Program-made: the position numbers and the translations under genes
Source: Flavobacterium gilvum
GTDB lineage: Bacteria; Bacteroidota; Bacteroidia; Flavobacteriales; Flavobacteriaceae
Assembly: GCF_001761465.1 (NCBI RefSeq)
Contig: NZ_CP017479.1
Coordinates: forward strand, 3,906,001 to 3,970,000
DNA: 64,000 bases
Reading direction: 5' to 3'
Shown here: piece by piece, positions 9,539-32,846 of the stretch
Layout: the number at the start of each line of letters is the position of its first letter
Position numbering within the stretch: position 1 is the stretch's first letter
Notes under the pieces: model-generated
Told to the model about the DNA's origin: nothing
Seen by the model: the letters and a program-made list of their open reading frames with translations, nothing else
Databases searched by the model: none

Positions 9539-9584
9539 CAAATTTATTCCGTTTATTTTTTTTTTGTATCCTGTACTATCCGCT
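9539..9584 (-). promoter_or_regulatory. PUL operator-promoter A1 for GH43_24 gene
   Basis: Read on the minus strand, the 18-bp element AGCGGATAGTACAGGATA (9584-9567) is followed by 20 bp and then TAAATTTG (9546-9539), a match to the Bacteroidota -7 box TAnnTTTG. The two half-sites are 10 bp apart. The same arrangement with the same 20-bp gap occurs at six other promoters here. Confidence 0.75.
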
Positions 9585-9602
9585 ATTTTTCAATTCAAAA
9601 AA

Positions 9603-9648
9603 ACAGGATGCTACAGGATAACCATTTGTAGGCTAAAATCTATTTTTA
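9603..9648 (+). promoter_or_regulatory. PUL operator-promoter A2 for plus-strand GH43-like gene
   Basis: ACAGGATGCTACAGGATA (9603-9620), 20 bp, then TATTTTTA (9641-9648), one base off TAnnTTTG. It faces away from A1, giving a back-to-back divergent promoter. The predicted transcript start near 9655 leaves a leader of about 225 nt before the gene at 9880. Confidence 0.68.
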
Positions 9649-9679
9649 CTTGGAATAAAATCAGCACTATTTGTTTTTT

Positions 9680-9845
9680 AACATATAAGTCATATAAGTT
9701 AGTTACTTAAGTAGTTTGTCATTTCAGTAATTAAAAAGAGAATATAAGTAAAATGTGTGTTTTAAAAGTCGGTATGACTTTGCTCGAATGAACTATTGCT
9801 CTTACTTATTTTAATCGAATAAAAAACTTATATGACTTATATGTT
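9680..9845. repeat. Perfect 21-bp inverted repeat in the leader of the 9880 gene
   Basis: Arms 9680-9700 and 9825-9845 are exact reverse complements built from the words ATATAAGTC and ATATAAG. They are separated by 124 nt, and the right arm ends 34 bp before the ATG. If the promoter at 9603-9648 is right, both arms lie in the 5' leader and could pair in the mRNA. No reading frame is supported between 9515 and 9879. Confidence 0.8.
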
Positions 9846-9879
9846 TCAAAAATATTACTAACCAACTTCACTTTAAACC

Positions 9880-11511
9880 ATGATGACATTTAAACCAAAA
9901 CAAAGAAGAAACAAATCCATTTTTATCAATGTATTTATGTTGACTTTAATAATTTGTGGAAGCACATTTTATTCGGCAAAATCACAAACATTGAACATCA
10001 AAAATGATGTGTTTTGGTACACCAAAAATAAACTTCCGATAAATAGTCAGGGTGGCGGAATCTTCACATTTCCCGACCCGAAAACAGGCGAAAAAAAATA
10101 TTATTGGTATGGAGTCTATTACAAAGAAGCCGATACCTATCGTGACGATCCTTCTGTTACACTAAAAAATAACACATTCGAATCGGTTACTTGTTACAGC
10201 TCAACCGACTTGGTAAACTGGACGTTTGAGGCAAATGTTTTGACCAATGACGAACTCAAAAAACAACCTGATTACCGCAAAACCTGGGTTGGGCGTTTGG
10301 GTGTTGCTTATATTCCAGAAATAAAAAAATACGCGATGTTTGTGCAACACGGTGGTGAAGTATTGATTACCGTTTCGGACTCTCCAACCGGGCAGTTTAC
10401 GTGGCATCAGCAAATAAGCATGAAAGAAATGATAGGCACGACCAACACCGGCGATCAAACCGTTTTTACCGACGATAACGGAAAATCCTATCTTATTTAC
10501 AGTTATGGGCAAGGCCGAAATAAAATTTACGTTTCGGAGATTGGCATGAAAAACGGTATGGTAAACCTGCTGGATTGCACCGAAGTTTTCAAGGGCGAAA
10601 ACCGTGAAGGAAACTGTATGTTCAAATACAAAAACAAATATTACCTCGCCGCTTCTAATATTTATGGTTGGGATTCTTCACTCGCCTATTACTTAGTTTC
10701 CGACAATATCCGAGGGCCTTATGAAGCTAAACAGGGAATGATGGTCATGAATGGTTGTGCCGATGATTATGCGCATGTGACCCAAACCGGATTTTTTGTT
10801 ACACTAAAAGGAAGCAAACAGGAAACAGTGGTGTATTGTGGTGACCGCTGGGCAAATTTTGCCGGAAACGGATTGGGATATAACCAATGGTTTCCGCTTT
10901 CGTTTGAAGGGCATACGCCTTATTTTAATTCGCTTGGTTCTTGGAATCTTAATGTCAAAACAGGAGAATGGAACGTGGCTCCCGACAATAATTTTGTCAA
11001 AAACGGAAGCTTTGAGGCTGACCGCAGAACCGTTCCAAATCCAGTAAAACCAAGACAATCATTTATGACGGGTTGGAACAACAAAGTTATTGAAGGCAAT
11101 CAAATTAGTTTTGATACAATTACTTCACCATACACCAACCATGAAAATAGTGAAAGCGACAGAAAAATAGTTATTGGCGAAAAAAGCCTGTCCATAAGCG
11201 ACAAAGTGAATTTTAAACGGGAAGTGTCACAAACCATAACATCGTCTCCTTTTGTAAAACTCGAAAAAGGAAGTTACTCGCTGACTGCCAGAGTCAAAAA
11301 CGGCGGAAAATTTACCCAACTCGAAATGTACGCCACCAGTAACGAAAAAACCCTGAAATACAAAATCACTGAAGAAAATACCGAATGGAAAACTATCAAA
11401 ATAGAAAACATAAAAGTGGAAAACGAGAAAGTGATAATTGGATTCTTGGCTAATGGTTCTGCGAATGCTTTTTGCTATGTCGATGATATTTCGCTTGTGA
11501 AAAACAGGTAA
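9880..11511 (+). CDS. GH43-like (subfamily-24-like) galactanase with C-terminal carbohydrate-binding domain
   Basis: The 543-residue exported protein has a signal peptide after a basic N-terminus (to about residue 36, SAKSQ). A beta-propeller follows (NSQGGGIFTF, KKYYWYGVYY, CYSSTDLVNW, GDQTVFTDD, REGNCMFK, HVTQTGFF). Glu243 and Gln302 fit the acid and base-like Gln positions of GH43_24, though 59 apart instead of 55. Residues about 370-543, beginning NNFVKNGSFEADRR, look like a CBM4/9-type beta-sandwich. It is divergently transcribed from the other galactanase-type GH43 and carries its own copy of the PUL operator. Likely activity is on beta-1,3-galactan or a related side chain; specificity is unproven. 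Confidence 0.75.
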   Translation: MMTFKPKQRRNKSIFINVFMLTLIICGSTFYSAKSQTLNIKNDVFWYTKNKLPINSQGGGIFTFPDPKTGEKKYYWYGVYYKEADTYRDDPSVTLKNNTFESVTCYSSTDLVNWTFEANVLTNDELKKQPDYRKTWVGRLGVAYIPEIKKYAMFVQHGGEVLITVSDSPTGQFTWHQQISMKEMIGTTNTGDQTVFTDDNGKSYLIYSYGQGRNKIYVSEIGMKNGMVNLLDCTEVFKGENREGNCMFKYKNKYYLAASNIYGWDSSLAYYLVSDNIRGPYEAKQGMMVMNGCADDYAHVTQTGFFVTLKGSKQETVVYCGDRWANFAGNGLGYNQWFPLSFEGHTPYFNSLGSWNLNVKTGEWNVAPDNNFVKNGSFEADRRTVPNPVKPRQSFMTGWNNKVIEGNQISFDTITSPYTNHENSESDRKIVIGEKSLSISDKVNFKREVSQTITSSPFVKLEKGSYSLTARVKNGGKFTQLEMYATSNEKTLKYKITEENTEWKTIKIENIKVENEKVIIGFLANGSANAFCYVDDISLVKNR

Positions 11512-11530
11512 AATTTGATTGCGAATTGAG

Positions 11531-11623
11531 CCACGGATTTTTACGGATAAAGCGGATTGGCACAGATTATTTATTAGAAATCAATAAAATCCGTGACATC
11601 CGTGACATCCGTGACATCCGTGG
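11531..11623. repeat. Tandem and inverted CCACGGAT / ATCCGTGAC repeats
   Basis: Nine-base unit ATCCGTGAC occurs three times in tandem (11589-11615) plus ATCCGTGG, and its complement CCACGGAT lies at 11531-11538. The region is non-coding and resembles the 'ccacggat...' intergenic repeats of flavobacteria. Confidence 0.75.
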
Positions 11624-11701
11624 TTAATTTTGGAATTCAGTTTGATTTTGTAAAAAGTAAGGTTATTAATTAAGGATAAAAATTGTCATAAAATATAAAG
11701 C

Positions 11702-11731
11702 AAAAATGAGGCTCGCAAGCCTCATTTTTTG
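11702..11731. terminator. Bidirectional intrinsic terminator
   Basis: Stem AAAAATGAGGCT with loop CGC and complement AGCCTCATTTTTT lies between two convergent genes. A-rich and T-rich flanks allow use in both directions. Confidence 0.85.
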
Positions 11732-11748
11732 TTTAAACTAATCAAAAA

Positions 11749-13083
11749 CTATTTCCTATTCAGCCACTCCTTCGGCACATTAACAATACAAATATTCATC
11801 GTGCGATTGTCCTCGGAAAGCATCGCCGATTGAATTTCAATTTTGGTTCCGTCCCTGTTAAAAGTCGGGTGAATGTGGTCAGCAGCGGTTTCTTTGTGGC
11901 CTGTTGTAAGCATCATCATTTCATTGGTTTTGCGGTCAATCAGGTAGAGACTTCTTGAAAAATCATCACCAACTGCCCATCTACCGTCTGCAGAACCATG
12001 AACGTGCCACAAACCGCTACCGCTTTTGGTTTGTCCTGCAATAATCATTTCTCGGGTTCTCAAATTCACAATTGCCAAACCAGTAGGTTTTTCGCGAGTA
12101 CCCGTAGCTCCCCAATTGCTTTCCTGTCCGGGATTCACCGGGTTGCGTATCTCGCCGTTTTTGGCAGCTTCCACCGGAGCTTCTTTCTCTATATCAATTT
12201 TTCGGTGTCCCATAATCGCCATTGCCACCTCATCTTTGCCAATTACCGCTTCGTGAGTCACCCACTCATAATCGGCTTCGGGATACAGCGGTCGCAAACC
12301 CGAACCGTCTGCCATCACCGTCCAAGTGCGTTGTGGCGACTTCCCTCCTGTTTCCCAGCAAAAAACAATCTCGCCCGGATTCCAAATATTCGACTGAATA
12401 TGTCCCACCTGAAAAGGTACCGAAACCACATGTTTCAACTCTCCTGTTTTAATATTCATACTGCCAATTCCTCCCGGCCCTGCACCCATGTTGCGTGGGC
12501 CAAAACTTTTTTCGATTACAACATCGGGTTTTAGGTATTTGGCCGCTTCTTCTTTTCCTTCCCTGAAATACACCCAATCTTCATTGGCATCCAAAGCCAT
12601 ATCACCCGAAGCACCCATTCCTGCTTTTGTGATTCCGCAAACTCTTTCATAAGCCGAAACAGGTTTCATTTTCCCCGCTTGGCTGTCTTTGAAAACTGCA
12701 TCCAGATTGACCTCCATAACCTTCATTTTGTCCTCGCCAGCATTGCGCATAAAATACAGTTTCATCGACTTTTGCGCCATACACAGTGTTCCGGTATAAC
12801 CGCCTTCGGTAACCTGAACCATCACGCCTGTTTTTTCATTGACCGCCAAGGCTTCGCCATTGGCTCTTTTGGTTCTGAAAATAAGCCATTCCCCATCAGC
12901 AGTCCATTGCGGATGCGTTGGATAGGTTTTGGAATCCCCTGCCGATTTGGTGGTCAAAAAAATTAATTCCTGTCCCGTTACCGGATCTTTTATGATCTTC
13001 TTTTCTGATGGAAAACGAGTTCCAATCTGACTAAAAGAGGCAACGGTAACCAATAAAAAAAGTGTATTAAAAACTGTCTTCAT
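11749..13083 (-). CDS. PL22 oligogalacturonate lyase, exported form
   Basis: The 444-residue protein has the seven-bladed propeller layout of oligogalacturonate lyases. Landmarks are THPQWTADGEWLIF, GHIQSNIWNPGEIVF, EWVTHEAVIG, LWHVHGSADGRWAVGDD and DHIHPTFNRDG. The His-rich motifs (HIQ, THE, HVH, HIH) are the likely Mn-binding ligands. Family enzymes cleave di- and trigalacturonate to 4-deoxy-5-ketouronate. An N-terminal signal peptide (MKTVFNTLFLLVTVASFSQ) sends this one to the periplasm, while enterobacterial members are cytoplasmic. It follows GH105 by only 3 bp, so the operon would process unsaturated uronides in the same compartment. Confidence 0.85.
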   Translation of the reverse strand: MKTVFNTLFLLVTVASFSQIGTRFPSEKKIIKDPVTGQELIFLTTKSAGDSKTYPTHPQWTADGEWLIFRTKRANGEALAVNEKTGVMVQVTEGGYTGTLCMAQKSMKLYFMRNAGEDKMKVMEVNLDAVFKDSQAGKMKPVSAYERVCGITKAGMGASGDMALDANEDWVYFREGKEEAAKYLKPDVVIEKSFGPRNMGAGPGGIGSMNIKTGELKHVVSVPFQVGHIQSNIWNPGEIVFCWETGGKSPQRTWTVMADGSGLRPLYPEADYEWVTHEAVIGKDEVAMAIMGHRKIDIEKEAPVEAAKNGEIRNPVNPGQESNWGATGTREKPTGLAIVNLRTREMIIAGQTKSGSGLWHVHGSADGRWAVGDDFSRSLYLIDRKTNEMMMLTTGHKETAADHIHPTFNRDGTKIEIQSAMLSEDNRTMNICIVNVPKEWLNRK

Positions 13084-13086
13084 TTC

Positions 13087-14439
13087 TTACTTTGATGTGT
13101 TATCTTTCCCTTCAACTTTCAACTGCATGGCACTGTCGTTTATGTGGAATTGATTTCCTTTCAGCAACAGCATCACTTCTGCTCCAGCCAGCAAAACAGG
13201 ACCATAACCGTGCGCAGCAAAAACATTTACAGGTCGGTAATAATAAAATGCCGGATCAAATCCCATACCGGTTCCCACACAAGTTCCTTCTACTTGTCCT
13301 TTATCATTTACTTTGGTTGACACGGCATTCCAACCCAATAATACAGCAGGGCCATAAGTCATTTTGTCAACATAGCCACGATTAATGGCTCTCGCAATCG
13401 AATAGGTATAAATCGCTGTTGCCGATGTTTCCAAATACGTATCATTTCTGTCCAATAATTGATGCCAAAATCCAGTTCCGTCCTGATATTGAACCAACCC
13501 TTTGATATGTTTTTGCAACTGCGCCAATACCTGCGGATATCCCGGATGATTTTTTGGCAGCACTTCCAGTAATTCTACCATAGCCATCACCGCCCAACCA
13601 TTGGCTCTGCCCCAATGAAATTCAGGGTGGTCTTTCATAGACTCTACCCAACCGTGCATGTAAATCCCTTTTTGCTCATTAAACATTCTTGCTGAAAACT
13701 GATTTACCTGCTTTACAGCATCGTCAAAATATTTCACATCGCCTGTATAAGCACCCATTTGTGCCAATGCAGGAACACTCATAAACATATCGTCCAACCA
13801 AAGCGAGTTGTCCTGTGGTCTGTTTCGTGCCAAAGTTCCATCCTTCAACCTGAATTGTTTATTACTGATGAAATCAATATAATTTTTAACCAAAGGGTCA
13901 ATATTTGCTTTCAGCCCTTCTTTTTTTGCTTTTATAAAAGCAGCACAAAGTGCTCCTGCAAAATCCAGTGCTTCGGGATGCAGGGTTTTAATCATATCTT
14001 TATCTTTGATATTCACTTCCTTATAATTCTCGGCCACATCTGCAATTAGCTGCATTCGCTTCGTATTATAATCGGCAAAATATTTTTCACCCGTAGCTTT
14101 TGCAGCCAAAGTCATTCCTGCATAGGTAACTCCCCATTCGTAACTCGTCAGTCTAAAAGCACCAGGTTCAAACATAATGTTTTCATTGCCCTTTTTATAA
14201 TTGGTGATTTCGGCTTTTGTATCAGCATTTATGATTTTCGAAGCTGTGTTTTTGTCCAAAAAACCATAAATCCTGTCCAAAACCGCTTTTATGTCTCCTT
14301 GCTGCGGAACCACATACGGGGTTGGATAATTGGGTTTCATCAAATGCAATGGTGCTGTTGCATCGTTAACTTGGGCAATAGCCACGTTAAATACTCCAAG
14401 CGAGAACAGGACTAAAGCTTTGGCATATGTTTTTTTCAT
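13087..14439 (-). CDS. GH105 unsaturated rhamnogalacturonyl/uronyl hydrolase
   Basis: The 450-residue protein has a signal peptide (to about residue 22, VAIAQ) and an alpha/alpha6-barrel. GH105/GH88 motifs are YEWGVTYAGM, DNSLWLDDMFMSVP (candidate catalytic Asp), HGWVESMKDHPEFHWGRANGWAVMA and YLETSATAIYTY. These enzymes hydrolyse the 4,5-unsaturated uronic acid left at oligosaccharide ends by polysaccharide lyases. It probably works with the adjacent PL22 lyase. It lies downstream of the DUF4861 gene, separated by a hairpin repeat element, and its transcript probably begins at the operator upstream of the CBM9-PKD gene. Confidence 0.88.
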   Translation of the reverse strand: MKKTYAKALVLFSLGVFNVAIAQVNDATAPLHLMKPNYPTPYVVPQQGDIKAVLDRIYGFLDKNTASKIINADTKAEITNYKKGNENIMFEPGAFRLTSYEWGVTYAGMTLAAKATGEKYFADYNTKRMQLIADVAENYKEVNIKDKDMIKTLHPEALDFAGALCAAFIKAKKEGLKANIDPLVKNYIDFISNKQFRLKDGTLARNRPQDNSLWLDDMFMSVPALAQMGAYTGDVKYFDDAVKQVNQFSARMFNEQKGIYMHGWVESMKDHPEFHWGRANGWAVMAMVELLEVLPKNHPGYPQVLAQLQKHIKGLVQYQDGTGFWHQLLDRNDTYLETSATAIYTYSIARAINRGYVDKMTYGPAVLLGWNAVSTKVNDKGQVEGTCVGTGMGFDPAFYYYRPVNVFAAHGYGPVLLAGAEVMLLLKGNQFHINDSAMQLKVEGKDNTSK

Positions 14440-14489
14440 TGGTTAGAAATTAAAATTATTATTTGTATACTGGTTCTAATTATTAATTT

Positions 14490-14634
14490 GGAGCAGAATG
14501 ATTTAGCCTTTTCAGTAAGCATTTGTCCCGCTATCCGTTGCAATCTTTTTATTTTTAAAGAAAAAATAAAAAGGATTTTCACTTCTATCGGGGCTAAAAA
14601 GAGCGATTTGGCTTTTTTGACATCATCCCAAAAA
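14490..14634 (-). repeat. Interspersed hairpin element, copy 2
   Basis: This is the reverse-orientation partner of 6481-6635: the minus strand reads TTTTTGGGATGA, then TTTTTAGCCCCGATAGAAGTG, AAATCC, a short AT-rich stem, GATTGCAACGGATAGCGGGAC and TTCTGCTCC. It is non-coding and fills most of the 263-bp gap between the DUF4861 and GH105 genes. Confidence 0.8.
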
Positions 14635-14702
14635 GCACTGAATCTGTTTGTAATTCAGACCTAAGAGGTTTTAAAAACCTGTTAGATCTCAAACTCAAAT
14701 AT

Positions 14703-15992
14703 TTATTTTGCCTCAACAACAATTTTTACAGAAAGCTCTTTTGCCAAATTAGTTACATATTTGGTAAAAAAGTTCGAATCCTCAAAACCTTTATCTGCAC
14801 TCAATTCCCATCCGGCAACGGCATAATAACTGATTTCCTTGTTGTTTTCAAGAGGTAATTCTGCCAAATAACTGTCTGTTAACTGTCCTTTTTTAGGAGC
14901 TTCGAGGTAACCTTGATACCCTATTTTAGGTACCAAAATTGCGCTTCCTAAAATCCACTCGCGATTGTAGGTTAGTCTGTCATGCAGAAAGAGACACACA
15001 AAATCCCCAGCGTCTACCACTCCCACACTTCTCTGATTGTTGATATTTGATAGCGCCACAAGAAAAGTTTCATTCCCTTTAAGACCACTAATTGAAACTG
15101 TGTTTTTGTAGGCATACATTCCCGGCCAAATTGATGTTGTCTCATGAACTTGGTATTTGTTCCCCGAAGCTTCCCAGTTTTGATAATCATAACTTAAAAC
15201 CGAATTTACCGGTCCTTCACTCACGATTTTAAAAGTCGTTTTCTCGACATTATTCACTGAATCGGTTCCCAGAATCCCTAGTCTTTTGATTTCATTATTA
15301 ATCAATAAGGCATAGCCTCCCAATCCAACTGAACTCCCTACTGGAAAAACATCTCTTCCCCAATCGTACATTTGGTGGTAATTATCCTCTACCGCTCCTT
15401 TATCATTAATACCCACATTTTCTGGAGTAATAGCAGGAAGCTTTTTTCCAAAAACATCTTTGGCATTTCGACCATCCAAATAATGCCTAAAACCTACTTT
15501 ATCATTCTCCCAAGTTGGCCCATCGGTTTGATAACGTTGATAGCCCAATGCCTTATACACTTCGTTGGCAGGCAAAACCTCTTCGGTAGCAGGTTTTACT
15601 GGTTCATCTTTTCCTGCTCTTTTCCCGAAACGAACACTGGTCCGAACAGGAAATTTTGGTACATCTTTAACCCATTTCAACTGAACTATTTTCTTTTCTT
15701 TGGCCGAAAAATCTGTTACCAAAAATAGTTCGTCCCATTTTCCGTCTCCATCCAAATCATTAACCTGAGATGGAATCGGTTCATTTTTATAGCTCAAAAG
15801 CGGAAAATCCTTTGCTATTCCTTTTTTGTCAATAACACTTCTTTTTATCGTTACCGCTTTATCCGTCAGTTTCATATCCGAGTCGTTGGATAACGTCACT
15901 GTAGAAATTACCCCATTCTGCTGTGCTCTGCAACTCATAATCGACAATACCGCCAAAGCTATCGGTACGAATAATTTAAAATTAGATTTCAT
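14703..15992 (-). CDS. DUF4861 family protein (PUL-associated, function unknown)
   Basis: The 429-residue exported protein has a lipoprotein-like N-terminus (SIMSCRAQ, Cys about 21). The body matches the DUF4861 family found in pectin and ulvan PULs: SQVNDLDGDGKWDELFLVTDF, GPTWENDKVGFRHYLDGRNAKD, YHQMYDWGRDVFPVG, and a C-terminal AVAGWE. The fold is expected to be all-beta. It is a candidate uncharacterised carbohydrate-active enzyme or binding protein: conserved His, Asp and Trp residues cluster in FRHYLDGR and MYDWGRD. It follows the CBM9-PKD gene by 47 bp and precedes GH105 and PL22. Confidence 0.7.
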   Translation of the reverse strand: MKSNFKLFVPIALAVLSIMSCRAQQNGVISTVTLSNDSDMKLTDKAVTIKRSVIDKKGIAKDFPLLSYKNEPIPSQVNDLDGDGKWDELFLVTDFSAKEKKIVQLKWVKDVPKFPVRTSVRFGKRAGKDEPVKPATEEVLPANEVYKALGYQRYQTDGPTWENDKVGFRHYLDGRNAKDVFGKKLPAITPENVGINDKGAVEDNYHQMYDWGRDVFPVGSSVGLGGYALLINNEIKRLGILGTDSVNNVEKTTFKIVSEGPVNSVLSYDYQNWEASGNKYQVHETTSIWPGMYAYKNTVSISGLKGNETFLVALSNINNQRSVGVVDAGDFVCLFLHDRLTYNREWILGSAILVPKIGYQGYLEAPKKGQLTDSYLAELPLENNKEISYYAVAGWELSADKGFEDSNFFTKYVTNLAKELSVKIVVEAK

Positions 15993-16039
15993 TTTATTGT
16001 TTAAGTTTTTTTATGTTTAAGTTTTGCGAATCGACTTTT

Positions 16040-17122: not shown

Positions 17123-17226
17123 CTGGTAATTTATTTGAATCAAAAAGCTTTTTTAAATTACAACTTTAGAATATATATCCCTTTATTTTTTTGCAAGATT
17201 TGGGGACTTTCATATAAGGCAACTTC

Positions 17227-17272
17227 CAAATATATTCATTAAAAATAGTTTTACTGTCCTGTAGCATAGGGT
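17227..17272 (-). promoter_or_regulatory. PUL operator-promoter F for CBM9-PKD/DUF4861/GH105/PL22 operon
   Basis: On the minus strand ACCCTATGCTACAGGACA (17272-17255), 20 bp, TATATTTG (17234-17227). The upstream half-site is degenerate, but the downstream half-site, the spacing and the -7 box agree with the six other sites. The predicted leader is about 100 nt. Confidence 0.6.
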
Positions 17273-17310
17273 TCTCGAAAACATCAAATATCACGGTAGT
17301 ATTTTTAAAA

Positions 17311-17368
17311 AAACAGCGAAAATCTGCGAAGTCTGCGAGCTTTTTTTTCACGCTGACTTCGCTGACTT
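17311..17368. repeat. Imperfect GCGAAGTCTGCGAG inverted repeat
   Basis: TCTGCGAAGTCTGCGAG is followed by a T-tract and GCTGACTTCGCTGAC, which pairs imperfectly with it. It lies in the 276-bp gene-free stretch between two PUL operons (17123-17398) and could act as a weak terminator or transcript-end hairpin. It is similar in wording to other flavobacterial intergenic repeats. Confidence 0.5.
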
Positions 17369-17398
17369 TCCCAGATAAAACTAATTAATCCGACAATA

Positions 17399-19825: not shown

Positions 19826-19890
19826 TTGTCTTTTATTATTTTTTTTAGGAAAGTTATAATTTCATTTCAAAACTTGCTCTCAAAAATACC

Positions 19891-20118: not shown

Positions 20119-20175
20119 AACCTTATTAGGTACGATTACGGACAAGCATATATTTTTTTATATATAAATTCATTA

Positions 20176-21702: not shown

Positions 21703-21735
21703 AAAAACCGCCCCAAAAAATTGAGACGGTTTTTC
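21703..21735 (-). terminator. Intrinsic terminator after SusD1
   Basis: On the minus strand AAAAACCGTCTCA, loop, TGGGGCGGTTTTT, then further T residues, 23 bp after the susD stop. The stem includes G-T pairs. Confidence 0.8.
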
Positions 21736-21757
21736 CAATAAAAAATAACTATAATTA

Positions 21758-23863: not shown

Positions 23864-23897
23864 ATTTCTTATTTTTTAATATTAATTCATTTATCTA

Positions 23898-26800
23898 TTA
23901 GAACCCAACTTCAAGCCCCATAACAAAACTTCTGTTGTAGTAGGTCGAGTTAGTATCAAAATCATACCAATTCACTGATTGATATAAACTGCCAGGGCTA
24001 ATAGCCTGTGCGTAAAGTTTGAAATTCGCTACACCTATTTTTGAAGTAAGATCTTTAGGGAAATTGTAGCCTAAAGAGATATTACGAATTTTTGCAAAGG
24101 CTGCGTCCGTAAACCCAAGTAAACCAGAAAATTGATCTCTTGAACCTGCTGCAGCTTGACCCAATATAGGTTTTTGAAACTCTGCATCTGTATTTAACGG
24201 TGTCCAATAATCGGTTTCACGCTGATTAGCATGAGCGGTCATTGCCTCACCTCCTAAAGATGCCATATACCCCATGCGCCCGAATATTTCAATTCCCAAT
24301 TCAAAACCTTTATACGCAAATGTATTGTTCCATCCCATAGTCCAATTAGGATTACTGTTACCAAGAACTACCTGGTCAGCGTTTGTCATTTTGTAATCAC
24401 CGTTTTGGTCTTTAGGACGCACATTACCAGGCACAAAGCTATAACCGTTTCCAGGAGCATTCCATTTAGCCATTTCAGCCTGATCTTCAGGAGTATCTTG
24501 CCACAATCCTAAGTTATCGTAACCGTATTGAACGGCAATTGACTTACCTATAAACCATCTGTTTTGAATATCATCGTTTTTACCAACAGCTAATTCTTCA
24601 ATTTGATCTTTTTGCCAAGCTCCAATCAAAGTAGTTTCCCAAGTAAATCCACTTTCAGTCTGTATCGGAATAAGATTAAGCGTAACTTCAACACCTTTGT
24701 TACTAGTTTTTCCAATATTGGAAAAAGTACTAGGATAACCTGTTACTGTAGAAATAAGAGGCTGTAATATCAAATCGTTTGTATACGACTTATAACCTTC
24801 AACAGTTCCACTAACTCTATTATCCAAGAAACTAAAATCAATTCCCAAGTTATATTGGGTAGTTTTTTCCCATCCCAATTCTGGATTAGGCATTGGAACC
24901 TGAGTACCTGTATAATAAGGTTCGTTGGTCGTATAGCCTTGTTCATTTGACCTTCCGTTAAAAGGAAGCCACACTGAAGAAATGTTACCTAATGTTTGGT
25001 AAGGATCTACAGATGAGTTACCTGTAACACCAACACCTAGACGAAGTTTTAAATTTTGAATCCAATCCACATTGACCATGAAATCTTCTTTATTGATTCT
25101 CCATCCAAAAGCTGCCGATGGGAAAAAGTCCCATTTATGACCTTCAGACAATTGCGAAGCTCCATCCCAACGACCAGATAGCGTCAATAAGTAACGACCA
25201 TCATATCCATAGTTCAAACGCGCCATATAAGAAGAAAGTTGGCGCTGAGTAAGATTAGAACTCATTGCAGCACTATTCGCTGGATTTGTTAAATCTACAG
25301 TTCCAAAGGCATTCCACAAGAAAGATGGCTTAGCTATATTATTGGCTTGCATCGATGATTCTTCGATATCCCATGATGAAGCAGACTGAAGCAATGTTAC
25401 ACCTACATTGTGTTTACTTGCAAAGGTGCGATCGTAAGTTAACATATTATCCAAAGTCCACGAAAAATCACGACGATTTCTAAGTCTGGCAAAATTGGTT
25501 CCTGCACTTCCATCAGCATTCACTTTAAGTGAAGAAGTTCCATCAATATACACACCCTCTCTCCAATGACGGAAGTCAGGTCCAAAATTAATTTTATAAC
25601 TCAATCCTTTTACAGGCTCCCAAATTTTTCCGATATCAAAAGTCCCAGAAAAATTTCCTAATAAGCGCATAATTTGATTTTGCTGTGTACTCTTATCCCA
25701 CTCGTCCATTATCGTATAAATTCCACTCTCACCTCCTGGATTAATTATAAGCTTACCATTAGCATCATAAGGAACAGCCATATTATAAATAGATTTTGCT
25801 GCACCATAAATTGCATTTGGAGCCGAACCGCTACGAGCACTCAAAGTTGACATTCCAAAATCCTGCTCACTCCATGTCGCATTCAAGGAAGCCGACAATT
25901 TGAACCATTCAGTAGCTACTACATTAGTACTTGCCTTAGCAGTATAACGTTTGTACCATTGTCCTTTTTGTGTTCCTTGATTATCCAAATAACCAAAAGA
26001 TCCATAGCCATTTACTTTTTCTGAACCTCCACTTGCACTTAAAACATGCTCAGTAGTAACTCCAGTTTGGGTTACAAATTTTGTCCAATCTGTATTAGTT
26101 ACTTTAGAAGGATCCCAAGCACCACTCTCCCAACCTTTCAATACATTATCTCTTGAAGTTTGCCCGTCTAATGGACTGTCAAAAAGCAGCCTATCGCTTG
26201 CTAAAGTTGCATCTTTCGGATTAATACCAGATGCCCAACGTCTGAAATCAATAAAATCTTCAGCACTCATGGAAGGCGATCTGTCCACAATTTCTTGTGT
26301 TGTAACTGTCCCAGCATAGTTCAAGCTAAAGCGACCTGCTTTACCTTGCTTAGTAGTAACGATGATAACCCCGTTAGCTCCACGAGATCCATAAATAGCC
26401 GTTGCAGAAGCATCTTTAAGAATATCGATCGAGGCAATATCACGAGGATTAAGCGTTTCGATAGAAGATTCCGACATTAAAGGTACACCATCCACTACAT
26501 AAAGAGGATCACTACTCGCTCTTATCGAACGTTGACCACGAATACGAACTGATCCCACAGTTCCCGGACGTTCGCTAGACACGATATCTACCCCTGCAGC
26601 CTTACCTTGTAAGCCCTCAAGCGCATTGTTTACCGGACGGCTCATCAATTTCTCCGCAGTAACACTTACTATCGCTCCTGTAACATCCGATTTCTTGGCG
26701 GTACCGTATCCAACGACTACAACCTCATTAAGCTGAGCCACTTCATCTACCATCACCACATCCAAAGCACTGCTTGATTTATCCACAGTCCTCTCAATCG

Positions 26801-27041
26801 TTTTCGAACCTGTAGAAGAAAAAACTAATACTTGACCCGGTGAAGCAGAAATTGAATACTTACCATCAAAATCAGTACTAGCACCCACCTTAGTTCCCTT
26901 AATAACAACGTTTACTCCGGGAATAGGTAATCCTGTTGCGTCTTTAATCGTCCCTTTAACCACTTTGCTTTGAGCATAAACTGAAACATGCAGTAAAGCA
27001 AAAAAGGCAATAGTCAGAAAAAGACTAAATTTACTTTTCAT
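23898..27041 (-). CDS. SusC/RagA TonB-dependent outer-membrane receptor (pair 1)
   Basis: The 1047-residue protein has a signal peptide (VSVYAQ), an N-terminal carboxypeptidase-regulatory-like domain (GTIKDATGLPIPGVNVVIKG), a TonB box region, and a plug with the SusC signature DILKDASATAIYGSRGANGV. A 22-strand beta-barrel ends in an aromatic C-terminus (MGLEVGF). It imports oligosaccharides into the periplasm using TonB energy. It is preceded by operator-promoter C and forms a two-gene unit with SusD1. Confidence 0.95.
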   Translation of the reverse strand: MKSKFSLFLTIAFFALLHVSVYAQSKVVKGTIKDATGLPIPGVNVVIKGTKVGASTDFDGKYSISASPGQVLVFSSTGSKTIERTVDKSSSALDVVMVDEVAQLNEVVVVGYGTAKKSDVTGAIVSVTAEKLMSRPVNNALEGLQGKAAGVDIVSSERPGTVGSVRIRGQRSIRASSDPLYVVDGVPLMSESSIETLNPRDIASIDILKDASATAIYGSRGANGVIIVTTKQGKAGRFSLNYAGTVTTQEIVDRSPSMSAEDFIDFRRWASGINPKDATLASDRLLFDSPLDGQTSRDNVLKGWESGAWDPSKVTNTDWTKFVTQTGVTTEHVLSASGGSEKVNGYGSFGYLDNQGTQKGQWYKRYTAKASTNVVATEWFKLSASLNATWSEQDFGMSTLSARSGSAPNAIYGAAKSIYNMAVPYDANGKLIINPGGESGIYTIMDEWDKSTQQNQIMRLLGNFSGTFDIGKIWEPVKGLSYKINFGPDFRHWREGVYIDGTSSLKVNADGSAGTNFARLRNRRDFSWTLDNMLTYDRTFASKHNVGVTLLQSASSWDIEESSMQANNIAKPSFLWNAFGTVDLTNPANSAAMSSNLTQRQLSSYMARLNYGYDGRYLLTLSGRWDGASQLSEGHKWDFFPSAAFGWRINKEDFMVNVDWIQNLKLRLGVGVTGNSSVDPYQTLGNISSVWLPFNGRSNEQGYTTNEPYYTGTQVPMPNPELGWEKTTQYNLGIDFSFLDNRVSGTVEGYKSYTNDLILQPLISTVTGYPSTFSNIGKTSNKGVEVTLNLIPIQTESGFTWETTLIGAWQKDQIEELAVGKNDDIQNRWFIGKSIAVQYGYDNLGLWQDTPEDQAEMAKWNAPGNGYSFVPGNVRPKDQNGDYKMTNADQVVLGNSNPNWTMGWNNTFAYKGFELGIEIFGRMGYMASLGGEAMTAHANQRETDYWTPLNTDAEFQKPILGQAAAGSRDQFSGLLGFTDAAFAKIRNISLGYNFPKDLTSKIGVANFKLYAQAISPGSLYQSVNWYDFDTNSTYYNRSFVMGLEVGF

Positions 27042-27077
27042 AATAGTTAAATTAAGTTAAAATTTTAGTTTGTTATT

Positions 27078-27123
27078 CAAATTTATTTAAAACCAAAAAG
27101 GAACTTATCCTGCAGTATCCTGC
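27078..27123 (-). promoter_or_regulatory. PUL operator-promoter C for SusC1-SusD1
   Basis: Minus strand GCAGGATACTGCAGGATA (27123-27106), 20 bp, TAAATTTG (27085-27078). Both half-sites are nearly perfect. The rest of the 367-bp gap up to 27408 is AT-rich and holds only the terminator of pair 2. Confidence 0.8.
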
Positions 27124-27358
27124 TTGATTCCAAGCGTTTTATCTAATTTGAACAAAGAAAAAACACTTCCTACCCAAACAAGTCGCTAAACGACAATCAA
27201 TTAACTATTATTTAACTTTTATTTATTTTTTTATTCAACAGAAAAAAATAGCATAAATTAATTAAAATAACAAGAAAAATAGCAAATTCATAAAAAAGAA
27301 ACACCAAAAAAAAGGTTTTGAAAATAAAAAGACAAAGTAGTCTATTATCAGCAAACAA

Positions 27359-27387
27359 AAAACCGCCTCAGGATTTGAGGCGGTTTT
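27359..27387 (-). terminator. Intrinsic terminator after SusD2
   Basis: Perfect 12-bp stem AAAACCGCCTCA / TGAGGCGGTTTT with a 5-nt loop, followed on the minus strand by T residues, 21 bp after the susD stop. Confidence 0.88.
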
Positions 27388-27408
27388 GAAAGAAACATAC
27401 TTTTTTTA

Positions 27409-29352
27409 TTAATAACCAGGATTCTGCATAGCTTGTTTTTCATCAGCAGTCAACGGTTTTCCGCTTCCATAAACCCCATCAAGGAAAGTTTGGGGAATTG
27501 GACGCAAGTTATGGTACGGTTGGATATTTAGAGCCGCATCAATATTATACGCTTTAGCTCTAGGAACCAAGGTTTTGGTTCTACTCAAATCCTCCCAACG
27601 ATGGAACTCTCCGCAAAGTTCTCTAGCACGCTCATTCAACACTAGGCACAACATTCTGTCATAATCACTAGCATAGCCCAACTTCGTGATTACAGCTTGA
27701 TCTTCTGCCGGTAAAGCACTTATATTGGCAATAGTCAAGTTTGTCGCTGTAGTTGCTACTGGAATATTATTTGATTCGTAATAAGAATTTTCAGCTATGT
27801 ACGAAATTGGAATTCCTGCTTGCCCAGCAGTAGTAAAAGCAGCCGATCCATCAACATAAGCAGCACGATTTTCTCCTGCCTTATAGGCAGCACGAGTACG
27901 AACTGTATTGATATAAGTCAGTGCATCTGCAAAAGAAGCTCCTCCTATTTTTGCCAGACGTACTTTTGCCTCTGCGGCCATCAGATAAGTTTCTGCAGAA
28001 CGCGCCAATACCACGTCACGAGATCCTCTTATACTTGTCAAATCGATCCTGTTACCATCCATGTATTTGCTTAAAGAAGGAAATCGTACATCTTTATTAA
28101 AACCAACATTATCTGCAGCATACGCAACATACACGCTTGGAATGGTTTTTCCAGTTTTTGAATCAATTATAACATCATTGTTTTTAGTTTTTGCAAAACG
28201 AGTATCCGAAGGCGTATTTACAATATACATAATACCCAAATCACCATTTTTATAAATCCCCGATGGATTGTTTACGATACTTTTTGTTTGGAAACTTTTC
28301 CAAAAACGAGAATCATTCACTTTATCAAAAACATCAAGCGTAAAATAAGTTGGAGCCAAACGGCTAAATGGTCTTCCTCCTGCCAGATTACGTTTCATTT
28401 GAGGCAATTGATCATACGTTGAAAGGAAATACAAATGCTGTTGGTTTGCTACCGTAATCAATGTACTGGCATTAAACTGAGCAGATAATATTAATTCTGG
28501 AAGTTTTTCGTTTGCATCATCTGCAACGGTATATTTCCATAAATTATCAAAGTTTGCCGCCAATGGGTGATGAGAGATAACCTCATCAGACAGAGTAACA
28601 ACCTTTTGCAAATCGGCTAATTTTGTAGTTCCGTTCCAGCTATCATTAATTTCGCTCGCACGAGACAAATATGCTTTTGCCAAATAATGAGCTGCTGCAT
28701 CTTTTGTTATTCTAGCAGGAAATCCTGTATTGCTTAACAAGTTATAAGCCTGAGTAAAATCAGCTATTATCTGATCCAAAACAGCCTGAGGAGTTGCTCT
28801 GCCAAATTCTAATTGCACTGTAGAATAGGTTTTTGTCACCAAAGGCACTCCGCCATATTGACTTAATAATTTCAAATAATTGAAAGCTCTCAAAAAGTAA
28901 CCTTCTCCCAACGCTGTTTTCTTAATAGCATCATTGGTAGAATTGATTGTTGTTGCCGCTTCTATTAACTGATTAGCATTACCAATTCCGATATACAAAT
29001 TGTCCCAATTGGTATTGGCCGCAACAGTATTAGCATTAGACACAGTTACAAAAGCCTTAAAACCTGTTCCGTAATTATTCCATGACCAGTTTGACGGGTC
29101 TCCTCCCTGACGAAACTCATCTGTTCCAGATTCAGTTGCAGCAAGAGGAACCTCACCTTGAAATTCTAAGGCAAATACCTGCTCATACGTCCCAACTACC
29201 AAGGCCTGAATCCCCGCTTCGGTTTTATAATAATCTTTACTGTAGGCTGTAGTCAATTCTTCGTCCAGGATATTTTGGTTACAAGATGAGCTGCCAATAG
29301 CCATTACAGCCAAAAGCAATAAATTTATGTATGGTTTTTTATAATTTTTCAT
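27409..29352 (-). CDS. SusD/RagB-family surface glycan-binding lipoprotein (pair 2)
   Basis: Starting at ATG 29352 the product is 647 residues with a lipoprotein signal (AVMAIGSSSCNQN, Cys24). A longer frame extends upstream into susC, but it would bury the signal peptide. SusD landmarks are ILDEELTTAYSKDYY, GYFLRAFNYLKL, a C-terminal LVLNERARELCGEFHRWEDLSRT and RPIPQTFLDG. The stop of SusC2 lies 11 bp before this start, so translation is probably coupled. It resembles SusD1 most at the C-terminus, so the two pairs are related but divergent and may take different oligosaccharides. Confidence 0.93.
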   Translation of the reverse strand: MKNYKKPYINLLLLAVMAIGSSSCNQNILDEELTTAYSKDYYKTEAGIQALVVGTYEQVFALEFQGEVPLAATESGTDEFRQGGDPSNWSWNNYGTGFKAFVTVSNANTVAANTNWDNLYIGIGNANQLIEAATTINSTNDAIKKTALGEGYFLRAFNYLKLLSQYGGVPLVTKTYSTVQLEFGRATPQAVLDQIIADFTQAYNLLSNTGFPARITKDAAAHYLAKAYLSRASEINDSWNGTTKLADLQKVVTLSDEVISHHPLAANFDNLWKYTVADDANEKLPELILSAQFNASTLITVANQQHLYFLSTYDQLPQMKRNLAGGRPFSRLAPTYFTLDVFDKVNDSRFWKSFQTKSIVNNPSGIYKNGDLGIMYIVNTPSDTRFAKTKNNDVIIDSKTGKTIPSVYVAYAADNVGFNKDVRFPSLSKYMDGNRIDLTSIRGSRDVVLARSAETYLMAAEAKVRLAKIGGASFADALTYINTVRTRAAYKAGENRAAYVDGSAAFTTAGQAGIPISYIAENSYYESNNIPVATTATNLTIANISALPAEDQAVITKLGYASDYDRMLCLVLNERARELCGEFHRWEDLSRTKTLVPRAKAYNIDAALNIQPYHNLRPIPQTFLDGVYGSGKPLTADEKQAMQNPGY

Positions 29353-29363
29353 AATATATCTTA

Positions 29364-32300
29364 TTAGAATTGGACATTTAATCCCATTGTGAATCCTCTG
29401 TTTGAAGCTGTTGTTTGCGTATCCAAATCTGTCCATTTAAGTTTAGAATAAATCATAAATGGATTGTTTGCCTGCATATACAATCTCAATTTGCTCACTC
29501 CAATTTTTTGTGCTAATTCATTTGCGAAATTATATCCCAAAGAAATGTTTCTCATTTTTAGGAAAGTTCCATTACGATATCCCAATACCGGAAAATAAGC
29601 ATCTCCAGTTCCCGCAGAATAGATTGGTTTTTGATATTCTGAATTGGTGTTGATTTCGGTATAATAATCGATTTGTCTTTGCGCCAACCTTGCACCTTCG
29701 TTTTCTCCTAATGTATCATAGATATATCCTGTTTTTCCATACATAAAGAAAGACAATTCAACATTTTTATAAACAAAAGTATTTGTAAGTCCATATATAT
29801 ATTTTGGATCTTTACTTCCTATAATAACGCGGTCGTTATTGGCATCGATTTTATAATCTCCATTTTGATCAACTGGCCTTGCGTTACCAAATGAGAAAAC
29901 ATTGGCACCGGCAGCAGCATTAAATTTTGCCATTTCGGCAGCATCTTCAGGTTTCCAAATTCCGTTTGATTCAAAACCATAAATCACGTTTTGAGGTTGC
30001 CCGATGAACAAGTTGTTGTTAATGTCATCAAATTTTCCGTTTTGCAAAGAAACAATCTCACTGTGCTGATAAGAAGCACTAAGACTGGAACTCCATTCAA
30101 AATCTTTGGCAACCACATTCACGGTATTCAAAGTTAACTCAACCCCATTTCCTTTTGTTTCCCCCACATTTTGATAGGTATTAGTAACCCCAAGTGGCGT
30201 TGGAACACTACTTCTTAGCAATAAATCGTTTGTATTACTTGTATAATATTCTAAAGCACCGGATACTCTACTATCAAACAATGAAAAATCAAGACCATAA
30301 TTGAATTGTGTTGTTTTTTCCCAACCCAAATCAACATTACCCAACGAAGTGTTATTTGTCACCCCAGATGTTGTTGATCCCAATGGATAAACTACTCCTA
30401 ACAATGGTGGAGTTGTACTATAAGCAGGTACAGCAGCATTTCCTGTAACACCGTAACCAGCTCTCAATTTTAATTGGTTAACCCATTTTACATCTTCCAA
30501 AAACTTTTCTTTACTTAAAACCCAAGCCAAGGAAGTACTAGGGAAATAATCACCTTTGTTTCCTTCTGCCAATTGCGAAGCTGCATCCCAACGAAGCGAT
30601 GCTGTAACCAAATACTTGTCGGCATAACCATAATTTACTCGCCCCATATAAGATGACAATGCATTCTCAACCAAACCTGAAGAATAACCTGCAAGTGTCA
30701 CGTTTGATGGAGTAAGTGCATTCCATTTGTTGGCAGGGTTTTTAACATCATTGGCAGACATAGCACTTGTCTCATTTTCATATTGCATTTGCGAAGCCAA
30801 TAAGGTTACACCAAAATTATGATTGCCTAATGTTTTATTATAAAAAATCAAGTTGTCTAAAGTATAGGAAACCGTTTGTTCCTTATTTAAGGCTGCATAA
30901 CTTGTTCCTGAACGGATACCCGATTTACCATCTAAATATATTCCTTCACGGAATGAAGTCAAATCTGGACCAAAATTGATACGGTATTTTAACCCATCAA
31001 GCCAAGATGTAACTCCGCCCAAATCAAACTGAGCATATAAACTACCAAAAGCGCGCATTGTAACACGTTGATCTTGCGAGTATTTATCTTCATCAACCGG
31101 AGTTCTAATTGCAGAATCTCCTCCTGGATTATCAATTCTATTTCCGTTATTATCATAAGGAACAGCATAAGGAAGGTTGGTACGTGCAGTTGCATATATA
31201 CCTGTAGAGCTTGTAACTGCGGTTCTTCCTGTATTGGACTGACCATATTCATTTATACCATAACTTGTATTAAGACTAACCCCCATGGAAAACCATTTGG
31301 TAGGCGTAATATCAACATTGGCAGTTCCGGTGTAACGCTTGAAGCTTTGGCCATTTAGTGTTCCCACATTATCCAAATACCCAAAAGATCCATAGGCCTT
31401 CATTTTTTCAGTACCTCCACTAACTCCCACGGTGTGTTGTTGAGTAACTCCTGTACGGGTAACAAATTTAGTCCAATCCGTAGTGGCTACTTTAGAACCA
31501 TCCCAAGCGGTAGTAATGTTTCCGTTTGCGTCTTTCCATCCTTTTTCGATGTTTGCCCAAGCATACGGATCTGCTGTAGCCACAAAAATAGCTTTATCAT
31601 TTGCGATAGTTGGTTGATCTCCTCTTGGGAAACCACTCGGATTAGAGTAATATCTTGCCCAACGACGAAATTCAATATACTCGGCTGCAGTCATATTTGG
31701 AGCATTTTCGTGAATCGTTTCAGTAACAAGGGAAGTGTCATAATTTAAAGTAAACTTCCCGTTCTTACCTTTTTTGGTTGTAACAATTACCACCCCATTT
31801 GCACCACGCGAACCGTAAATAGCGGTAGCCGAAGCGTCTTTTAATACGTCGATCGTCTCAATATCAGTAGGATTCAAAAATCCGATTCCTCCTGAATTTG
31901 GGTCAACACTGATTTTTCCCGCTGTATCAACATTAAGTTTAGAATTCATAGGAATTCCGTCTACTACATATAGAGGAGCATTAGAAGCCGAAATAGAACG
32001 CGCTCCACGAATAGTGATACTTTGCACTTCTCCAGGACGCTCGTTAGTACCAACGTCAACCCCGGCAGCTTTACCCTGCATGGCTTGCACGGCACTCACA
32101 ACAGGTCTTGAAGCAATATCTTCGGCATTTACGCTCACTACAGATCCTGTAAGATCCTTTTTCTTTTTTGTCCCATAACCTACAACAACAACCTCATCTA
32201 GGGTGTTATTTTCTTCTTTCAGGACAACATTAATTTGAGAAGACTGTCCCACCGTTATTTCCTGAGTCTTGGAACCCACAAAACTATAAACCAGAATAGC

Positions 32301-32507
32301 CCCGGGAGAAACACTGATGGTATAGTTTCCATCAAAATCTGCTGTTGCTGCTTTTTGAGTCCCTTTGATAAGAACACCAGCACCGGGCAAAGGCAAACCA
32401 GAAGCATCCGTTATTTTTCCTTTAACCACTTTGTCCTGAGCATAGCCCGACGAACTCATCAAAGCAAACAGCATCATAATAAACAAAAAAGGTAATTTGT
32501 TTTTCAT
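29364..32507 (-). CDS. SusC/RagA TonB-dependent outer-membrane receptor (pair 2)
   Basis: The 1047-residue protein, equal in length to SusC1, has a signal peptide (SSGYAQ), a carboxypeptidase-like domain (GKITDASGLPLPGAGVLIKG), the VVGYGTKKKKDLTG motif, plug motif DVLKDASATAIYGSRGANGV and a C-terminal MGLNVQF. It imports glycan fragments together with SusD2. The gene is preceded by operator-promoter D, the best match in the window, and is divergent from the GH106 operon. Confidence 0.95.
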   Translation of the reverse strand: MKNKLPFLFIMMLFALMSSSGYAQDKVVKGKITDASGLPLPGAGVLIKGTQKAATADFDGNYTISVSPGAILVYSFVGSKTQEITVGQSSQINVVLKEENNTLDEVVVVGYGTKKKKDLTGSVVSVNAEDIASRPVVSAVQAMQGKAAGVDVGTNERPGEVQSITIRGARSISASNAPLYVVDGIPMNSKLNVDTAGKISVDPNSGGIGFLNPTDIETIDVLKDASATAIYGSRGANGVVIVTTKKGKNGKFTLNYDTSLVTETIHENAPNMTAAEYIEFRRWARYYSNPSGFPRGDQPTIANDKAIFVATADPYAWANIEKGWKDANGNITTAWDGSKVATTDWTKFVTRTGVTQQHTVGVSGGTEKMKAYGSFGYLDNVGTLNGQSFKRYTGTANVDITPTKWFSMGVSLNTSYGINEYGQSNTGRTAVTSSTGIYATARTNLPYAVPYDNNGNRIDNPGGDSAIRTPVDEDKYSQDQRVTMRAFGSLYAQFDLGGVTSWLDGLKYRINFGPDLTSFREGIYLDGKSGIRSGTSYAALNKEQTVSYTLDNLIFYNKTLGNHNFGVTLLASQMQYENETSAMSANDVKNPANKWNALTPSNVTLAGYSSGLVENALSSYMGRVNYGYADKYLVTASLRWDAASQLAEGNKGDYFPSTSLAWVLSKEKFLEDVKWVNQLKLRAGYGVTGNAAVPAYSTTPPLLGVVYPLGSTTSGVTNNTSLGNVDLGWEKTTQFNYGLDFSLFDSRVSGALEYYTSNTNDLLLRSSVPTPLGVTNTYQNVGETKGNGVELTLNTVNVVAKDFEWSSSLSASYQHSEIVSLQNGKFDDINNNLFIGQPQNVIYGFESNGIWKPEDAAEMAKFNAAAGANVFSFGNARPVDQNGDYKIDANNDRVIIGSKDPKYIYGLTNTFVYKNVELSFFMYGKTGYIYDTLGENEGARLAQRQIDYYTEINTNSEYQKPIYSAGTGDAYFPVLGYRNGTFLKMRNISLGYNFANELAQKIGVSKLRLYMQANNPFMIYSKLKWTDLDTQTTASNRGFTMGLNVQF

Positions 32508-32542
32508 AAAAGTTAATTTTTAGTTAATTAATTTAGTCGAAA

Positions 32543-32588
32543 CAAATATATCCAGTAGCCCTCCTCTATCTATCCTGCACTATCCTGT
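32543..32588 (-). promoter_or_regulatory. PUL operator-promoter D for SusC2-SusD2
   Basis: Minus strand ACAGGATAGTGCAGGATA (32588-32571), 20 bp, TATATTTG (32550-32543). The two half-sites share CAGGATA exactly, 10 bp apart. It lies in the 420-bp divergent region 32508-32927, which is otherwise AT-rich and non-coding. Confidence 0.82.
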
Positions 32589-32800
32589 ATTTTTATTAAA
32601 AAAGAACATTATTATCAATAATTTTTATAAAATTTAAATAAAAAATCTCTTTTAAAACTAAATTAAAAGTGATTATAAAAAAATATCTTAAAATAACATG
32701 AAAATAACTTTATTTATACTTATTATATTATTTAATAAAAAACTATAAAAAACACATAAAAAACAACTTTTTTCAATAAATCATTCACACTTTAATCAAA

Positions 32801-32846
32801 ACAGGACTCAACAGGATACTATTCACATATACTACTTATAATTTTA
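32801..32846 (+). promoter_or_regulatory. PUL operator-promoter E for GH106 operon
   Basis: ACAGGACTCAACAGGATA (32801-32818), 20 bp, TAATTTTA (32839-32846; last base off consensus). The predicted leader to ATG 32928 is about 75 nt. Confidence 0.7.

Follow-up and report, generated by a model that had tools for sequence, protein, structure and literature searches.

A direct-repeat operator shared by pectin and rhamnose genes in Flavobacterium gilvum, and a GntR-type protein as its candidate reader

Introduction

What do the promoters of a pectin-type gene cluster in Flavobacterium gilvum have in common, and which protein reads it? We analysed a stretch of 64,000 nucleotides (assembly GCF_001761465.1, contig NZ_CP017479.1, positions 3,906,001 to 3,970,000), called the window in the following, which holds part of a rhamnogalacturonan/pectin-type polysaccharide utilisation locus (PUL). 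Seven promoters in it carry the same short direct repeat. An earlier note on this DNA had taken these sites for the regulon code of the PUL, had proposed an activator that replaces the -33 promoter element, and had expected the reader to be a hybrid two-component system (HTCS) or AraC-type regulator. Little has been learned of how PULs are regulated outside Bacteroides. Our analysis points to a GntR winged-helix protein with a LacI-like sensor, and not to an HTCS or AraC protein, as the best candidate reader.

Results

The letters, coordinates and strands of the seven sites were confirmed exactly in the window, and the gap from operator to -7 box is 20 bp in all seven (Table 1). The Bacteroidetes sigma-A promoter has TTTG at -33 as its second element. 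Its -7 consensus is TAnnTTTG (PMC9723704; here and below, citations refer to extracts of the papers named), and a box of this type, TAnnTTTR, is present at 7/7 sites.

A search for CAGGATA-N3-CAGGATA-N20-TANNTTTR with up to 3 mismatches gave six matches in the window (all sites but F), against a mean of 0.02 and a largest value of 1 in 100 dinucleotide shuffles. The 4.40-Mb genome yielded 13 matches, the reversed pattern 0. Apart from the six in the window, two of the 13 lie within 17 kb to its left and five elsewhere; one of the latter, at 2657678, falls within an open reading frame (ORF), scores just 14.9 bits and was treated as chance. Without the -7 box, the bare repeat matched 27 times in the genome at up to 2 mismatches (reversed control: 11), and nine of these 27 have TAnnTTTR at offset 20. 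A matrix built from 69 sites in relatives, with this genome excluded, recovered at 9 bits or more exactly the seven sites in the window and no eighth. Six of them scored 27.3-37.8 bits. Site F, the weakest of the seven, reached 18.2 bits; its distal half, CCCTATG, agrees with CAGGATA at 3/7 positions. Since the reversed control for the matrix (0.97 Mb) had 20 scores of at least 9, three of at least 14 and a maximum of 22.7, F is a probable but not a certain site. The earlier claim of a shared operator is thus supported by genome-wide enrichment and strict spacing, and likewise by conservation in relatives and by placement before sugar-degradation genes.

To examine the geometry of the repeat we used 789 kb of DNA from 9 relatives, in 40 stretches that had been picked around earlier hits and are therefore enriched by design. 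Half-sites with at most one mismatch formed 74 pairs at 10 bp, compared with 0-12 pairs at each other distance from 7 to 45 bp and four pairs at 10 bp in the reversed control. Convergent pairs were slightly in excess at offset 5 (19 pairs), which, by reasoning, is expected from the partly self-complementary word. Among 141 repeat pairs from the 40 stretches, the window and loci L028 and L029, selected regardless of a -7 box, TAnnTTTR stood at offset 20 in 68, at 19 in none and at 21 in one. In 80 named loci (see below), T[AT]nnTTTR was found at 20 in 94 of 162 pairs, at 19 in one and at 21 in none. The consensus of 77 sites reads RCAGGAYA-SW-RCAGGAYA with an almost invariant promoter-proximal half, and in the window as in relatives the spacer letters vary while both ends stay. 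The repeats are direct at 10 bp, unlike the inverted-repeat operators usual for the GntR family.

A larger set of 117 sites scoring at least 24 bits was drawn from the window, L029, L030 and the 40 stretches. Two of these sites fall in ORFs of at least 200 aa, both immediately in front of rhaEW, which has an open frame in the upstream direction. The distance from box to next ORF start has a median of 43 bases (101 sites with a distance of 0-299). TTTG at a -33 spacing of 17-22 was present at 1/117 sites, compared with 3/33 comparison boxes. A third 10-bp copy (within 2 mismatches) occurred at only 4/117 sites, so longer arrays are not the rule, and no recurrent further half-site was found upstream among the 117. 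Two stretches in relatives (G184:C6:208935-208999 and G163:C4:1429-1473) have about four 10-bp repeats in a row instead of the usual two.

Fifteen kb to the left of the window, a gene divergent from rhaT (genome coordinates G000:C1:3890277-3891320) encodes a protein of 348 aa, and a site lies between the two genes. This protein, which we call RhaR-GntR, has a GntR winged-helix domain (PF00392, E 1.4e-11, above cut-off), with GntR relatives by sequence in the PDB; those of the DNA-binding domain include the repressors YvoA and arabinose repressor (4egy and others). It further has a LacI/periplasmic-binding-like effector domain (PF13377, 27.3 bits against a cut-off of 26.5). A structure model of the ortholog L073 (pLDDT 85.8) matches structures of LacI and of the LacI-family protein CcpA, and because of this resemblance a sugar-like effector is likely. 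From the target genes we infer that rhamnose or a catabolite of it would be that effector. A paralogous GntR gene (G000:C1:3604292-3605320; L259:8262-9323), whose product is 49% identical to RhaR-GntR, has a 29.9-bit site upstream; autoregulation or a cascade is possible there.

A scan with the GntR protein listed 113 relatives, the best 80 of which provided the loci; we assign all 80 to the Flavobacteriaceae, in part by title. A site with at most 4 mismatches lies less than 700 bp upstream of the regulator gene and faces away from it in 73/80 loci; all 80 loci (1.57 Mb) hold 112 such sites, their reversed sequence three. The 13 most distant loci were examined with the matrix at 17 bits or more. 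A site stands directly before rhaEW in 11/11 of those that hold rhaEW, namely from Polaribacter, Hyunsoonleella, Flaviramulus, Algibacter, Galbibacter, Maribacter and a metagenome-assembled genome; their flanks have diverged and no rhaT hit was found in the locus. Together with the site at the rhaT operon, this places operators before rhamnose catabolic genes.

Regulator and operator also occur together across genomes. The regulator (E <= 1e-110) was found in 60 of 299 Flavobacteriaceae genomes. The pattern CRGKATANNNCAGGAYA-N20-TANNTTTR with up to 2 mismatches is present in 59/60 genomes with this close ortholog (420 hits) and in 40/239 without it (52 hits, near the control rate; reversed control over all 299 genomes, 52 hits counted by eye). 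At least three hits occur in 46/60 genomes with the regulator, compared with 2/239 without. In G217, the sole exception among the 60, rhaEW is preceded by a 26.4-bit site whose box reads CATATTTG. Fisher P values are 2e-34 and below and overstate independence because the genomes are related. Within the genus, hits occur in 5/5 further genomes that carry the regulator, 4-10 in each and 26 in total, and 11 genomes without it (E > 1e-60) have four in total, at most one each. The rhaEW gene is present in 71/299 genomes, 59 of which have the close regulator; of the 12 that do not, five have a hit, two have two and none has three (counted by eye).

Four rhaEW-bearing genomes (G108, G222, G037 and G247) carry a GntR subclade that is 42-45% identical, with the motifs SRDT[IV]V[RK]A and S[IV]PGKG as against mostly SRDTVEKA and SIRGKG in the main clade. 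Hits to the CAGGAYA pattern number 0, 0, 1 and 0 in these four. In G222, CAGAACG-GTA-CAGAACG-N20-TAGATTTG is located between GntR and rhaEW. Two sites flank GntR in G108, one with CTTAACA/CAGAACA before rhaEW, the other with CAGAACA/CAGAACG and the box TAGTTTAA before a SusC-like gene. G247 has one CAGAACR hit 15 kb from GntR and none nearby. When 20 genomes were tested for the CAGAACR pattern, 13 of them gave a total of 24 hits at up to 2 mismatches. G222, G247 and G108 account for all four hits that have 0 or 1 mismatch. The remaining 20 have 2 mismatches and also occur across main-clade genomes; many of these are CAGGACA sites. In G448, from another family, CAGAATA-GCA-CAGAACA-N20-TATATTTA lies between GntR and rhaEW. 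These sequences suggest, but do not prove, that the half-site changes with the regulator from CAGGAYA to CAGAACR while both spacings are kept.

Discussion

Sites, geometry, conservation and gene context, as well as co-occurrence and co-variation with the regulator, were all observed by computation. In our judgement they are likely to represent operators of a rhamnose-responsive activator, RhaR-GntR, that replaces the -33 element. RhaR-GntR would read two direct (R)CAGGAYA repeats spaced 10 bp, one per DNA turn, whose end lies at the position of the -33 element, exactly 20 bp from the sigma-A -7 box. On binding rhamnose or a metabolite derived from it, the protein would recruit RNA polymerase and so jointly switch on rhamnose catabolism and the loci that release rhamnose, from rhamnogalacturonan-type pectin here and from ulvan in some relatives. 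We favour activation because like direct half-sites one turn apart end at -33, at a fixed distance to the -7 box. In the earlier proposal of an activator standing in for the -33 element, the one-turn direct repeats and the strict spacing held good, and the activating role is our reading of them.

The same regulator and operator might instead act by repression, blocking the promoter without sugar until released by a rhamnose-derived effector; we regard this as unlikely, though it is the best of the alternatives. AusR reportedly belongs to Zobellia galactanivorans and its alginate PUL (Dudek, 2020). It is a precedent, since this flavobacterial GntR protein represses genes of the alginate PUL (PMC8286568), and the repressors among the PDB relatives point the same way. 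Repression, however, does not need one fixed distance to the -7 box, and the site lies upstream of that box in promoters of which 116/117 have no -33 TTTG, though comparison boxes rarely have one either.

Less probable again is that another regulator travelling with rhamnose or pectin genes (HTCS, AraC-type or unrecognised) reads the sites, the GntR protein being a mere neighbour. In Bacteroides, PULs are usually regulated by HTCS (PMC3878776), and in the present genome one HTCS is encoded divergently from the site at 2.53 Mb. Yet HTCS sites are spaced about 21 bp apart (PMC3878776), a geometry absent here, where one 10-bp pair is found with few third copies and no recurrent upstream half-site. 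The genome has 24 AraC-type (PF12833) matches, all of them outside the window and more than about 50 kb from the rha operon, which leaves no such match in or near the PUL, and the half-site letters change along the GntR subclade. The HTCS or AraC reader expected earlier is therefore not upheld, and the GntR/LacI-like protein by rhaT fits instead. A DeoR reader was also considered and rejected, PF08220 giving 0 matches in the genome.

A reading without any activator, in which RNA polymerase or an alternative sigma factor recognises the proximal CAGGAYA itself as a -33-type element, would suit the fixed spacing and the near-invariant proximal half, but it is very improbable: the -7 box is of sigma-A type (PMC9723704), the second half 10 bp upstream is conserved too, and site presence depends on one regulator gene. 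Chance, composition or copied promoter segments can practically be dismissed; although intergenic DNA is AT-rich and the two SusCD promoters of one cluster could be copies, the matches far exceed shuffled and reversed controls, and the spacer letters differ while both ends are kept.

For RhaR-GntR as an activator we see the strongest case, and several observations weigh against it. Direct binding, activation and the effector are steps that we infer. Two of the 13 distant loci have no site before rhaEW, because both lack rhaEW; one (L145) has sites elsewhere, the other (L146) none. More distant families with the regulator by rhaEW mostly show no detected geometry: when 20 loci, mostly of such families, were searched for 10-bp repeats with N20 irrespective of sequence, two were found (reversed control 0), for which reason generality there is not supported. 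The lack of a -33 TTTG does not separate sites from comparison boxes. The half-site change comes from one small subclade and one case, and within the subclade G037 has no CAGAACR hit at up to 2 mismatches and one weak site (15.7 bits) beside GntR. AusR, a known flavobacterial PUL regulator of the GntR family, is a repressor and serves alginate. GntR proteins mostly bind inverted repeats, and the direct repeats of the MocR/GabR type lie two or three turns apart, compared with one here (PMC5320631).

With slightly less confidence we think it probable that a one-sugar code exists across the Flavobacteriaceae. A GntR/LacI-type activator would have rhamnose-yielding loci and rhamnose catabolism wired to it, the half-site being rewritten with the regulator while the geometry stays fixed, and control would be exerted by the released cytoplasmic monosaccharide, not by sensing of periplasmic oligosaccharides.

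Several known systems are comparable. AraR has the same two-domain build as the candidate and is a repressor with palindromic operators. As a GntR/LacI-type arabinose repressor, it is related to the candidate by sequence in its DNA-binding domain (PDB 4egy and others). AusR resembles the candidate in family and role, being a GntR-family protein over polysaccharide-utilisation genes in a flavobacterium. MocR members of the GntR family bind direct repeats through a GntR winged helix and some activate, as proposed here, but have an aminotransferase-like effector domain (PMC5320631). The HTCS and SusR-like regulons of Bacteroides likewise have direct-repeat operators before PUL genes, although with spacings of about 21 bp (HTCS) or 67/77 bp (SusR-like) and with other protein families (Ravcheev 2013, PMC3878776). 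The rhamnose regulators treated in one study belong to the AraC, DeoR and LacI families, and the word GntR occurs 0 times in its text (Rodionova 2013, PMC3870299). The rhamnose operons described there include RhaEW as here, and the DeoR-type RhaR has direct repeats with a 10-11 bp periodicity; the present genome differs in having no DeoR gene. Pectin-induced SusC/D proteins are described in F. johnsoniae, whose loci could not be mapped to these sites, and rhamnose did not promote colony expansion of this species, which has no bearing on induction (PMC8056085). The earlier note knew of no description of the motif, and by title or abstract none for motif or regulator was present among the matches listed, RegPrecise lying outside the search.

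If correct, our reading would provide a promoter code from which loci for rhamnose-containing polysaccharides in Flavobacteriaceae could be predicted from DNA alone. The unassigned families DUF4861 and DUF5722, and DUF4450 through its neighbourhood, would become candidates for enzymes of pectin or ulvan breakdown, and the reading would add a GntR protein acting on direct repeats one turn apart, rigidly spaced to a Bacteroidetes promoter.

Target genes and further features

Table 1. Operators, -7 boxes and further sites. Positions refer to the window unless given as genome positions.
Feature	Sequence	Position	Strand	Bits	Context
PUL, part within window		1..38907			rhamnogalacturonan/pectin-type; extends left into rhamnose operon outside window
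Operator A1	AGCGGATAGTACAGGATA	9567..9584	-	27.3	before GH43 8078-9541
-7 box of A1	TAAATTTG	9539..9546	-		20 bp past operator A1
Operator A2	ACAGGATGCTACAGGATA	9603..9620	+	31.9	before GH43 9880-11511
-7 box of A2	TATTTTTA	9641..9648	+		
Operator F	ACCCTATGCTACAGGACA	17255..17272	-	18.2	borderline; weak distal half; before PKD protein 16040-17143 and DUF4861 14703-15992
-7 box of F	TATATTTG	17227..17234	-		
Operator B	ACAGTATAGCACAGGATA	21581..21598	-	34.1	before GH43 20499-21533
-7 box of B	TATATTTG	21553..21560	-		
Operator C	GCAGGATACTGCAGGATA	27106..27123	-	33.3	before SusC 23898-27041 and SusD 21758-23863
-7 box of C	TAAATTTG	27078..27085	-		
Operator D	ACAGGATAGTGCAGGATA	32571..32588	-	37.8	before SusC 29364-32507 and SusD 27409-29436
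-7 box of D	TATATTTG	32543..32550	-		
Operator E	ACAGGACTCAACAGGATA	32801..32818	+	33.2	before GH106 32928-35729 and GH88/105 35754-36878
-7 box of E	TAATTTTA	32839..32846	+		
Pattern match		genome 3889946 (G000:C1:3889946-3889991)			before rhaT, left of window
Pattern match		genome 3899761			before GDSL/GH2 pair, left of window
Pattern match		genome 289076			
Pattern match		genome 320885			
Pattern match		genome 2534577			
Pattern match		genome 2657678		14.9	within ORF; treated as chance
Pattern match		genome 3604115			
Matrix site		genome 351845		26.7	before second rhaEW copy
Matrix site		genome 320930		36.6	before SusC of second pectin locus
Matrix site		genome 289121		31.5	before gene adjoining GH78-like gene (GH78 named by eye)
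Matrix site		genome 3604114		29.9	before paralogous GntR gene
Matrix site		genome 349272		18.4	borderline

The PUL genes in the window encode two GH2, a sulfatase, GH115, GH28, three GH43, two GH88/105, DUF4861, two SusCD pairs, GH106 and an esterase. Operator A1 probably also serves the GH28-GH115-sulfatase-GH2 genes behind its GH43. To the left of the window follow two GDSL proteins, a GH2, a DUF4450 protein, one protein without Pfam match, a PL11 rhamnogalacturonan lyase and then the rhamnose operon with rhaT, an aldolase-dehydrogenase fusion of RhaEW type, rhaA (labelled from position and conservation only) and an FGGY kinase. The code is thus shared, as the earlier note had it, but is not confined to the PUL: it extends to the rhamnose operon, a second rhaEW and other pectin or rhamnosidase loci, and in other Flavobacteriaceae to ulvan lyases and rhamnosidases.

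Pfam (E <= 1e-8) was run on 20 first genes downstream of sites in relatives; rhaEW genes were recognised by coordinates and one RhaT by eye. Ulvan-type targets among the 20 proteins are a PL28 ulvan lyase and two more with an endo-ulvan-lyase beta-trefoil domain. Four carry GH78 rhamnosidase domains, one of them fused to a sulfatase. Further targets are GH39, GH5, two DUF5722, a short-chain dehydrogenase, a 3-keto-disaccharide hydrolase and a CCG protein, which we take to be of the lactate-utilisation type. Four of the 20 have no Pfam match, and two have a secretion tail only. The genomes with these targets are presumed to be marine.

Two families of unknown function apparently stand behind the operator, DUF4861 in the window (14703-15992, weak site F) and DUF5722 in a relative (L198:11470-13587; L200:14524-18726). 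The second rhaEW copy (G000:C1:349522-351645; L257/L258) has 99% protein and 96.6% DNA identity over 2.35 kb, adjoins a second pectin-type locus and has its own operator. Another SusCD locus (L030, G000:C1:2525001-2538703) encodes fasciclin-domain proteins and has a perfect operator at 2534577-2534621, from which an HTCS is encoded divergently. In G305 of another family (C2:2404549-2819836), five CAGGAYA repeats were found, four with boxes one base off TAnnTTTR, perhaps reflecting a different promoter consensus.

With the A1 box at -12 to -5 as in F. psychrophilum (PMC9723704), the first ATG, at 9532, would be nearly leaderless (window 9514-9546); a second in-frame ATG at 9514 would give a leader of about 20 bases. 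Further right in the window, a multihaem cytochrome c/TPR protein adjoins two PAS-rich hybrid histidine kinases (49955-57622); both kinases (52356-57622) have a receiver, and Pfam detected no DNA-binding domain in them. A Crp-like regulator, a TauE exporter and a metallo-beta-lactamase/rhodanese protein lie in a row at 46228-49284, presumably resembling a sulfide/persulfide unit.

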